NCBI GenBank assembly: GCA_945883565.1
Contig: CAMCXO010000013.1
Span: forward strand, 1 to 64,000
Direction of reading: 5' to 3'
Length of the DNA stretch: 64,000 nucleotides
DNA from: Chryseobacterium gleum
GTDB lineage: Bacteria; Bacteroidota; Bacteroidia; Flavobacteriales; Schleiferiaceae
Numbering within the stretch: position 1 is the first letter of the stretch; each line of letters begins with the position of its first letter. Under the pieces are notes generated by a model. The model was given only the letters and a program-made list of their open reading frames with translations, had not been told where the DNA came from and did no database searches. A program made the translations under genes and the position numbers. Of the stretch, positions 53,164 to 57,377 are shown in pieces.

Positions 53164-53892
53164 TTAAGGCTTTAGCATTTGAAAAACATACAGCATTTCG
53201 GCCGCAATTTGTCGCGACCTCAAATCGTAAACGGCTGTTTCTTCAGGTGTTCCGTCTGATACTTTGGGGTCGGTATATGGCAACGAAAGTCTGTACTCGG
53301 CCCCCGGAACAAAAGGGCAATTTCTATCGGCTTCCGAGCAAGTCATTACCGCAGCAAATCCTTTTTTAGGAATGGAAGCATGCTCATATGTTTTAGAAAA
53401 TCCGTGAATGGGTTCTAAATTCTCTCCCATTGTTACAGTGTAATCTGGATTGTCTTCTCCACTTTTTGAGATTACAAAGCCTGCCCTTTGCAAAGCCGCT
53501 ACCGCTCGTTCATTAAAAGCCGTAACCTCGGTGCCTCCGCTGTAGGTGCGAACAAATTGCCCCAATCCTACCGAATGGGCAGCTGCCATGGCCCAAATTT
53601 GTCCAAAATGGCTTCTTCTGCTGTTGTGGGTGCAAATAAATACCAATTCTAAGGTCTCCTTGGCATCGAGCTTCTCCTGAATATAGGTGCTCAATTCCAT
53701 CAATACCGCCCGTCTTTCATCCGAAATGGCGGCTATTTCGCGGTGCAAGCTGCCTTGAAATTCCTGAATCTTTGGATACATTGTGGTAGATTTTTGATTT
53801 TCGGTTGTAGAAGCCTTGGTTTGAATGGAAGTTTGGGCCGTAAGCTGATGTAAACCAAAAACCATCAGACCGGTATAAAGAAAGTTTTTCAT
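53164..53892 (-). CDS. arsC: arsenate reductase-like low-molecular-weight phosphatase with N-terminal signal peptide
   Basis: Member of the LMW-phosphatase/thioredoxin-type arsenate reductase family, expected to reduce arsenate to arsenite. The P-loop is FICTHNSRRSH (Cys87, Arg93, C-x5-R). A redox pair lies in MTCSEADRNCPF (Cys185, Cys192), with the same seven-residue step as the Cys82-Cys89 pair of S. aureus ArsC. The protein starts with a convincing signal peptide (about 1-20, MKNFLYTGLMVFGLHQLTAQ), which is not normal for a cytoplasmic reductase. An internal Met38 (53781) would give the usual 205-residue form. Last gene after arsR and arsM, 12 nt downstream of arsM. Confidence 0.82.
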   Translation of the reverse strand: MKNFLYTGLMVFGLHQLTAQTSIQTKASTTENQKSTTMYPKIQEFQGSLHREIAAISDERRAVLMELSTYIQEKLDAKETLELVFICTHNSRRSHFGQIWAMAAAHSVGLGQFVRTYSGGTEVTAFNERAVAALQRAGFVISKSGEDNPDYTVTMGENLEPIHGFSKTYEHASIPKKGFAAVMTCSEADRNCPFVPGAEYRLSLPYTDPKVSDGTPEETAVYDLRSRQIAAEMLYVFQMLKP

Positions 53893-53904: not shown

Positions 53905-54789
53905 TTAGCAACAACCGCTGTTGGGTGCGCACTTTTGAATATCAGACAATTTAACCCTGGGCTTAACTGTATTTTCGGCTGTTGTGGGCTTTTGAGCGTA
54001 TACTGTAAGGCTCAAAATGCCCACTTCACCACTTAGCACTTTGGCAACTCCTTCGGCATCTTGGTACTTGCTCAACAAATCGGTTGGCAAAACAATGGCT
54101 TTTTCTTTCTGAATTCGAACATCTATAAAGCCTGCCTTCTCTATATATGCCAAATATTCTGACTTTTGAATGGCCCCCGAAACACAGCCCGCATACATTT
54201 CCGCGTCTTCTACAAGCGCTTGAGGCAGTTGGCCTTTAAGCACCACATCGGAAATGCTAAAATGACCGCCGGGTTTTAATACCCTAAAGATTTCGCCGAA
54301 AATTCGCGATTTATTGGGAAGCAGATTCAGCACACAATTAGATACCACCACATCGGCCCTTCCGTCGCCAATCGGCATGTTTTCGATATCGCCCAGTCTA
54401 AATTCTACATTGTTAAATCCAAGAGCATCTGCATTGTGTCTGGCTTTTTCTACCATAACCTCGCTAAAATCTACGCCAATTACCTTGCCTTCAGCCCCAC
54501 ACTCGTGACGCGCCACAAAACAATCGTTTCCGGCACCCGAACCCAAGTCTACCACGGTATCGCCTTTGTTTATCATAGCAAATGCGGTGGGCAAACCACA
54601 ACCCAATCCCAAATCAGCCTCTTCCGAATAGCCATCTAAAGACTCATAGCTATCGCTCATGATGTTGTAAACTTCGGTGGAGGACTCAGTGGCCCCGCAA
54701 CAGCTCGACCGGTTAAAGGCAGTAGACTGCGAAGCAATTTCCGAGTACTTCCTGCGCACCATATCTTTAATATCTGCTTCTGTTTTCAT
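53905..54789 (-). CDS. arsM: arsenite S-adenosylmethionine methyltransferase
   Basis: Methylates As(III) with S-adenosylmethionine to mono-, di- and trimethylated products. A SAM-binding motif VVDLGSGAGNDCFVA (about 79-93) lies in a class I methyltransferase fold. The three arsenic-binding cysteines of ArsM are seen: Cys64 in GLGCGLP, Cys152 in VSNCVLNLLP and Cys202 in YAGCVSGA. Extra cysteines occur near the N terminus (SSCCGATES, Cys30-31) and at the very end (CAPNSGCC). 294 residues. It lies between arsR (25-nt gap) and the reductase-like gene (12-nt gap). Confidence 0.93.
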   Translation of the reverse strand: MKTEADIKDMVRRKYSEIASQSTAFNRSSCCGATESSTEVYNIMSDSYESLDGYSEEADLGLGCGLPTAFAMINKGDTVVDLGSGAGNDCFVARHECGAEGKVIGVDFSEVMVEKARHNADALGFNNVEFRLGDIENMPIGDGRADVVVSNCVLNLLPNKSRIFGEIFRVLKPGGHFSISDVVLKGQLPQALVEDAEMYAGCVSGAIQKSEYLAYIEKAGFIDVRIQKEKAIVLPTDLLSKYQDAEGVAKVLSGEVGILSLTVYAQKPTTAENTVKPRVKLSDIQKCAPNSGCC

Positions 54790-54814: not shown

Positions 54815-55162
54815 TTAACAACACCCGCTGTCGGCATCTGTATTTTCGATTGTGCCTTCTACATTTAAAAAGGCCTCCATTTCCAATCGCATCGCCTCCC
54901 ATTGCCCCCTGTCTATGCAGTAATTCACCTTTACCCCCTCTATGCTGCCTTTAATTAACCCAACCTCTTTTAATTCACGCAAATGCTGACTAATAGTGGC
55001 CTGGGCCAAACCAAGCTCTGAAACGAGGTCGCCGTTTATGCAACTTTCGCTTTTCAGCAAAAATTGAAGGATGGCAATGCGGGCGGGATGCCCCAATACC
55101 CTTGCCCAATTGGCCAAGCGGTTCTGGCTCTCGGTAAACAACTCTGTTTTGACTAGTCCCAT
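54815..55162 (-). CDS. arsR: ArsR family metalloregulator
   Basis: Winged-helix repressor expected to be released by arsenite. The helix-turn-helix region reads LVSELGLAQATISQHLRELKEVGLI (about 46-70; given in parts as LVSELGLAQATIS and QHLRELKEVGLI). The usual paired Cys of E. coli ArsR helix 3 is not kept: only Cys41 is present (SESCINGD). Other cysteines are Cys82 (NYCIDRG) and a C-terminal pair in DSGCC (Cys114-115), which may form a different As(III) site. First gene of the cluster, with a palindromic site at 55175-55190 just upstream of its ATG, suggesting autoregulation. Confidence 0.9.
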   Translation of the reverse strand: MGLVKTELFTESQNRLANWARVLGHPARIAILQFLLKSESCINGDLVSELGLAQATISQHLRELKEVGLIKGSIEGVKVNYCIDRGQWEAMRLEMEAFLNVEGTIENTDADSGCC

Positions 55163-56379: not shown

Positions 56380-56697
56380 ATGGCCGTACTAGATGCTAAC
56401 GACAGCAACTTCGAAACTATACTTCAAGAAAACGAAAAAGTGGTGGTAAAGTACTATGCCGATTGGTGTGGCAACTGCAAGCTTTTCGCCCCCAAATACA
56501 AGCGGGTTTCGAATGAAGAAAACAACAGTCAATTGGTTTTCTTAGACGTAGATGCCGAGAAAAATCCACTTGCCCGTAAAATGGCAGGCGTTAACAACCT
56601 TCCTTTTTTGGCTGTTTTCCAAAACGGACAACTTATAGAAGGTGATGCCTCAAGCAAAGAAGAATATTTGCGCACATTAATAGCTAAAATTCAATAA
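56380..56697 (+). CDS. thioredoxin family protein (CGNC)
   Basis: Cytoplasmic thioredoxin-fold protein of 105 residues. The redox motif is YADWCGNCKLF rather than the canonical CGPC, and the cis-Pro loop is NNLPFLAVF. The CGNC form suggests a redox potential and partner different from those of the general thioredoxin encoded 360 bp downstream. It is followed after only 2 nt by a DUF6952-like gene, a pair I recall from Flavobacteriales, often near a peroxiredoxin gene. No peroxiredoxin gene is seen here. Confidence 0.9.
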   Translation: MAVLDANDSNFETILQENEKVVVKYYADWCGNCKLFAPKYKRVSNEENNSQLVFLDVDAEKNPLARKMAGVNNLPFLAVFQNGQLIEGDASSKEEYLRTLIAKIQ

Positions 56698-57059: not shown

Positions 57060-57377
57060 ATGGCAATTGAAATCACCCACGACAACTTTGAAACAGTGGT
57101 TCTTAATAGCGACAAGCCTGTTCTGGTTGACTTTTGGGCAGAATGGTGTGGCCCCTGCCGCATGGTAGGCCCCATAGTAGAAGAACTTAGCAAAGACTAC
57201 GAAGGCAAAGCCGTTGTGGCCAAGCTTAATGTAGACGAATACGGCGACATTGCCGGTCAGTTTGGCATCCGCAACATTCCTACCCTATTGTTTTTCAAGA
57301 ATGGTCAGGTGGTAGACAAACAAGTGGGGGTAGCCCCTAAAACGGCCTTGGCGGCCAAACTCGACGCCACGCTTTAA
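57060..57377 (+). CDS. trxA: thioredoxin
   Basis: General cytoplasmic thioredoxin, 105 residues. Redox motif FWAEWCGPCRMVGPI, conserved Asp in VLVDFWAEW, and the cis-Pro loop RNIPTLLFFKNG. It reduces disulfides in proteins such as ribonucleotide reductase and peroxiredoxins. A role as electron donor to the arsenate-reductase-like protein encoded 3 kb away is possible only if that protein is cytoplasmic. Own promoter box, strong terminator after it. Confidence 0.96.
   Translation: MAIEITHDNFETVVLNSDKPVLVDFWAEWCGPCRMVGPIVEELSKDYEGKAVVAKLNVDEYGDIAGQFGIRNIPTLLFFKNGQVVDKQVGVAPKTALAAKLDATL

Follow-up and report, generated by a model that had tools for sequence, protein, structure and literature searches.

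The protein encoded at positions 53164 to 53892 (minus strand) of the window, by which we mean the whole 64,000-nucleotide stretch of DNA analysed, is best described from its sequence as an exported variant of the thioredoxin-type arsenate reductase ArsC. The ArsC triad, an N-terminal extension that is conserved and selected, a position in an arsR-arsM operon and a DsbD gene in the genome are observed. We assign a probability of roughly 0.55 to the reading in which this exported ArsC would act in the periplasm, reducing a pentavalent arsenical with electrons that a DsbD-type protein supplies.

The gene starts with an ATG at 53892, its stop codon ends at 53164, and the product has 242 aa. The coordinates, strand and frame proposed in the first-pass annotation are all correct, as is the gap of 12 nt after arsM, which ends at 53905. 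Directly upstream, arsM encodes an arsenite methyltransferase (53905 to 54789, minus strand; NCBIfam NF008823, 349.8 bits, cut-off 263), and the first gene of the operon encodes an ArsR-type regulator (54815 to 55162, minus strand; NF033788, 60.5 bits, cut-off 55; Pfam HTH_5). Near the ars operon, and divergent from it, lie two thioredoxin genes (56380 to 56697 and 57060 to 57377, plus strand) in which no signal peptide is obvious. Elsewhere in the genome, contig C19 carries a lone ACR3 gene, C16 encodes an LMW-PTP-family protein, and C27 encodes a PF03960 protein whose active-site motif resembles that of YfgD. The gene in the window is the genome's one copy of the family.

The match to thioredoxin-linked ArsC claimed in the first-pass annotation was borne out, with Cys87, Arg93, Cys185 and Cys192 at the positions given there. 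Across 157 scored rows (30 exported, 123 non-exported and 4 membrane-fused), the P-loop CTHNSRR, Cys87-x5-Arg93 (53614 to 53634, minus strand), is invariant except for His89. The redox pair Cys185 and Cys192 (53317 to 53340, minus strand), equivalent to ArsC Cys82/Cys89, and Asp208 in the DP loop (53269 to 53271, minus strand), at the general-acid position of ArsC and LMW-PTP, are invariant in 157/157. Four exported rows (L143, L145, L146 and L147) carry the P-loop variant CTSNSRRS instead of CTHNSRRS.

An HMM profile of 26 sequences, the window protein included, matched the Bacillus subtilis ArsC 1jl3 at E 8.5e-18, and this alignment places Cys87 and the Cys185/Cys192 pair on the corresponding cysteines of 1jl3. 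The window protein scores 37.3 bits against the NCBIfam ArsC family TIGR02691, far under the cut-off of 174.3. Its score for Pfam LMWPc (PF01451; gathering cut-off 23.2) is 22.6 bits; searched on the DNA, PF01451 gives 22.9 bits, or 23.4 with neighbours in frame. The protein-level scores mark it as kin to both families yet under their lines. An AlphaFold model built from two sequences (mean pLDDT 65.3; residues 1-40 under 50) has N-terminal helices at 42-53 and 58-76. With this model as the Foldseek query, the top structure was ArsC2 of Deinococcus indicus (8p5n, E 2.1e-05, 26% identity), 1jl3 was found at E 3.7e-04, and the four best chains comprised two of 8p5n, ArsC 1jl3 and the thioredoxin-ArsC complex 2ipa.

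The N-terminus of the window protein, MKNFLYTGLMVFGLHQLTAQ, is shaped like a Sec signal peptide. Residues 1-19 (53836 to 53892, minus strand) are the probable signal peptide, as judged from the hydrophobic scan and the extensions of relatives, with cleavage placed by eye before Gln20 (LTA/QTS). The first-pass annotation spoke of a clean signal peptide; the Sec shape is there, but "clean" was generous, as the best charge-free 8-residue segment reaches a modest 1.88 on the Kyte-Doolittle scale, under the 2.0 line used for relatives and the weakest among rows labelled exported. No lipobox was seen in this N-terminus when a Cys after the h-region was looked for.

To assess relatives, 161 distinct rows were searched for a hydrophobic segment that is free of charges and follows an upstream start. 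Hand labelling gave 31 exported rows, 4 membrane-fused rows with several membrane segments ahead of the ArsC-like domain, 3 ambiguous rows that were set aside (L049, L075 and L184) and 123 without such a segment. To be labelled exported, a row needed a score of about 2.0 or more and a start lying well upstream, and the window protein (1.88) and L135 (GTG start) were added by hand. Among the matches listed, a hydrophobic extension occurs in each of the four further genomes of the genus (L004/L109, L007/L111, L008/L112 and L010/L114), and signal-peptide-like extensions also occur in many other Bacteroidota; the extension is therefore not an accident of annotation. Homologues lacking an upstream hydrophobic segment, which the first-pass annotation would have counted against export, do make up most of the family (123/160 tree rows), but this does not extend to the exported subgroup.

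Several relatives (L117, L108, L237, L218, L219, L224, L232 and others) carry a lipobox, and family f67 has many such members (L219 AAGC, L224 LVGC, L232 ASGC and L237 ATAC), whose motifs, as read from sequence, have no easy explanation other than export. At the N-termini of L232 and L240, GSDD follows the lipobox, an arrangement reminiscent of the surface-export signal of Bacteroidota lipoproteins.

The extensions of relatives are under purifying selection and evolve as protein. In 10 close pairs, which comprise relatives only and in none of which the window protein takes part, the pooled pN/pS was 0.27 in the extension vs 0.13 in the core. The extension had 43 synonymous changes over 157 sites, compared with 36 non-synonymous changes over 491 sites (Fisher p 5.7e-10, with sites taken as independent), and its two gap columns both fall in one of the 10 pairs. 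The pair L241/L242 is contrary, with an extension pN/pS of 1.26.

Start positions were considered in 49 exported rows, which are the 53 listed minus L108, L143, L225 and L229, where the offset met no start codon. The spacing count took the 29 of these with gene calls: in 26/29 loci, at most 300 nt separate the export start from the preceding gene's stop codon, with a median of 19.5 nt, and the remaining 3/29 have no upstream gene within 300 nt. The window, L109 and L114 share a gap of exactly 12 nt. Taken together, the extensions of relatives, their lipoboxes, the pN/pS of 0.27 and the median start spacing of 19.5 nt make it very likely that the window protein is exported from the cytoplasm.

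Depletion of cysteines was considered as a further mark of an oxidising compartment and was dropped, as non-catalytic cysteines are not depleted in exported rows (mean 1.77 vs 1.90 in non-exported rows, p 0.69). The window protein has no extra cysteines.

From these features we infer the export, the chemistry, the substrate and the electron route as follows. The protein would be co-produced with arsR and arsM, exported over the inner membrane by Sec and act in the periplasm. There, Cys87 would be the nucleophile towards arsenate or another pentavalent arsenical, with Cys185/Cys192 finishing as a disulfide. This disulfide would be re-reduced by a DsbD-type membrane protein, either in direct contact or via a periplasmic thioredoxin-like protein, and the DsbD-type protein would in turn be fed by cytoplasmic thioredoxin.

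Proteins of the DsbD type take electrons from thioredoxin in the cytoplasm and pass them across the membrane. The first-pass annotation held that a periplasmic reductase would need another electron source than thioredoxin; direct use of cytoplasmic thioredoxin would indeed be excluded for an exported protein, but DsbD relays the electrons of thioredoxin, and its genes are found in nearly all of the genomes concerned and once within an operon. DsbD_TM is over its cut-off in 31/32 genomes with exported members, the sole miss being a genome of 80% completeness, and the genome of the window has a DsbD frame of 694 aa. DsbD_TM is also over the cut-off in 10/14 control genomes, so the presence of DsbD is weak evidence. 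The operon case is that of genome G467, where the gene order (L117:5458-8573) is arsR, lipoprotein ArsC, DsbD (PF02683 at 94.5 bits, along with a thioredoxin-like domain) and an ArsC-like copy that is cytosolic; G467 is the single case of DsbD placed between exported and cytosolic ArsC copies. In G415, the exported ArsC gene is followed in the same run by ArsE, ArsF and ArsG family genes (ArsE: TIGR00412, 105.8 bits, cut-off 62; ArsF: 91 bits, cut-off 60, with a lipobox-like N-terminus; ArsG: 296.7 bits, cut-off 200). Adjacency to DsbD or CcdA as a feature specific to exported members was dropped, as the non-exported L139 and L183 also have CcdA-like and thioredoxin-lipoprotein genes nearby. 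DsbD is a plausible answer to the electron-source problem.

With the window protein as query, matches at E <= 0.001 were found in 60/88 genomes of its taxonomic family, 180/395 of the order, 168/395 of the class and 146/395 of the phylum, in genome draws that overlap; the weakest of them probably represent other proteins of the LMW-PTP type. Used as query, an exported relative matched in 176/249 genomes in the order of G467. Some relatives' loci were chosen mostly for long frames, and the exported share there is thus no estimate of frequency.

A quick tree was made from 160 rows, excluding the extension and omitting L114 as too short. The exported label requires 8 changes on this tree vs 27.7 in shuffles (0/500 as low), and all 30 exported tree rows lie inside one 58-row part with a support of 84. 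A tree holding the 30 exported rows together was 46 log units above that of the free search (p-AU 0.853, short search), so a single origin of export is not rejected. L126, L127, L128 and L129 of genus g118 form one clade in the quick tree; in these frames of 390-419 aa (L126:6898-8070, L127, L128 and L129), an ArsC-like domain follows several membrane segments, and a cytoplasmic orientation of this domain is suggested by the positive residues that follow the last segment. Single frames that join ArsR and ArsC-like domains were seen at L137:5858-6895, L155:1858-2760 and L175:4244-5038, and are possible regulator-reductase fusions.

The genes around the exported members are mostly, though not always, ars genes. 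According to a simple custom longest-frame gene caller, and with flanks incomplete at some loci, exported rows have ArsR (22/30), ArsM (12/30), ACR3 (11/30) and DUF6428 (5/30) within 1.5 kb, compared with ArsR (81/123), ArsM (25/123), ACR3 (78/123) and DUF6428 (40/123) for non-exported rows. Two candidate rules were dropped. ArsM linkage is not specific to the exported form, since many non-exported members also have ArsM (12/30 vs 25/123, p 0.03 with relatedness ignored), and the absence of ACR3 is no rule, as the genome of the window has the ACR3 gene on C19 and 22/32 genomes are over the cut-off. The stand-alone lipoprotein members L218-L229, L232, L234 and L240 (n = 15) gave no match to ArsR, ArsM or ACR3 within the DNA examined, and among those whose neighbourhoods were listed the recurrent neighbours are other genes. 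The exported form is thus not tied to arsenic everywhere, and appears to be an ars-operon protein mostly, not always.

These stand-alone members lend some weight to an alternative which we regard as unlikely, namely that the exported protein reuses the ArsC triad for something other than arsenate reduction and is a periplasmic phosphatase, a protein that binds or senses arsenicals, or a reductase of another oxidised substrate. Its LMW-PTP ancestry (Pfam LMWPc) and the name "protein-tyrosine-phosphatase" given to relatives in public plasmid records would agree with this, as would L111 and L112 from the genus of the window, which are sited behind other genes and showed no ars match. Against it stand the invariance of both extra redox cysteines, for which a phosphatase has no need, and the location of the window gene in an arsR-arsM operon.

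A second alternative, which likewise seems improbable to us, concerns the internal ATG that encodes Met38 (53779 to 53781, minus strand), 49 residues before the catalytic cysteine. Translation from Met1 would give the exported form, and translation from Met38 a cytosolic arsenate reductase served by ordinary thioredoxin. Many non-exported relatives begin at this same position, -49 from Cys87. In 36 of the 49 exported rows, picked as representatives, an ATG occurs at -58 to -46 in 18 vs 8.5 expected from Met frequency (simulated P 0.0005, with rows taken as independent), while the control stretch at -45 to -33 has an ATG in 5 vs 10.1 expected. The genome of the window has no other family member, and in G467 the exported and cytosolic forms coexist as two genes. 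A relic of the ancestral start and a working second start would both fit the ATG enrichment, however, and there is no sign of a separate initiation signal. At -58 to -36, six of the 49 exported rows lack any ATG, GTG or TTG, so that the usual cytosolic start is closed to them. An exclusive start at Met38, making the protein an ordinary cytosolic arsenate reductase with its start annotated too far upstream, would agree with the usual start of the family and with the extension missing in most of it (123 of 160 tree rows), but is very unlikely given that the extension of relatives is selected as protein, that several relatives have lipoboxes inside it and that Met1 gives normal operon spacing.

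Periplasmic reduction by an exported ArsC is hence the reading we prefer for the window protein. Extended to the whole group, a more tentative proposal, against which the odds still lie, is that thioredoxin-type ArsC has an exported branch in Bacteroidota, whose members are periplasmic or lipid-anchored and powered across the membrane by carriers of the DsbD/CcdA type. Such a branch would reduce pentavalent arsenicals outside the cytoplasm in arsR-arsM operons, perhaps including methylarsenate from re-oxidised ArsM products, and in some members a second start may serve the cytosol.

ArsC has so far been treated as a cytoplasmic enzyme. If the preferred reading is true, arsenate reduction shifts to the cell envelope, and the site at which As(III) appears changes relative to efflux and methylation. 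The CcdA genes of ars operons are treated by Castillo and Saier 2010 (PMC2963123). In passages of that paper, genes for CcdA, thioredoxin and redox-active disulfide protein 2, including membrane electron carriers of the DsbD family, are linked to arsC in ars operons, and transmembrane electron flow is thought less likely because ArsC is cytoplasmic. On the evidence of these passages, the genes were left unplaced because ArsC was taken as cytoplasmic; the objection would be lifted in the lineages described here, where ArsC is predicted to be exported, and the DsbD/CcdA and thioredoxin-like genes would gain a concrete role. Titles and abstract openings in the open-licence literature, together with passages of PMC2963123 and PMC9751042, held no description of an exported thioredoxin-type ArsC, which is no proof of absence.

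The window protein shares with the thioredoxin-linked ArsC of Staphylococcus aureus pI258 and B. subtilis (TIGR02691; 1jl3, 2ipa) the CX5R P-loop, the DP loop, the fold and the spacing of seven residues between the second and third redox cysteines. It differs from these enzymes in being predicted to be exported, in scoring far under the TIGR02691 cut-off and in its longer core, where helices are added at the N-terminus and an insert separates the P-loop half from the Cys pair. ArsC2 of D. indicus (8p5n), with 135-144 residues in the solved chains, lacks the N-terminal extension of the window protein. The non-exported relatives in Bacteroidota belong to the same family, are mostly 40-55% identical to the window protein and share its invariant residues, whereas they have no signal peptide or lipobox and are often encoded in arsR-DUF6428-arsC-acr3 operons.
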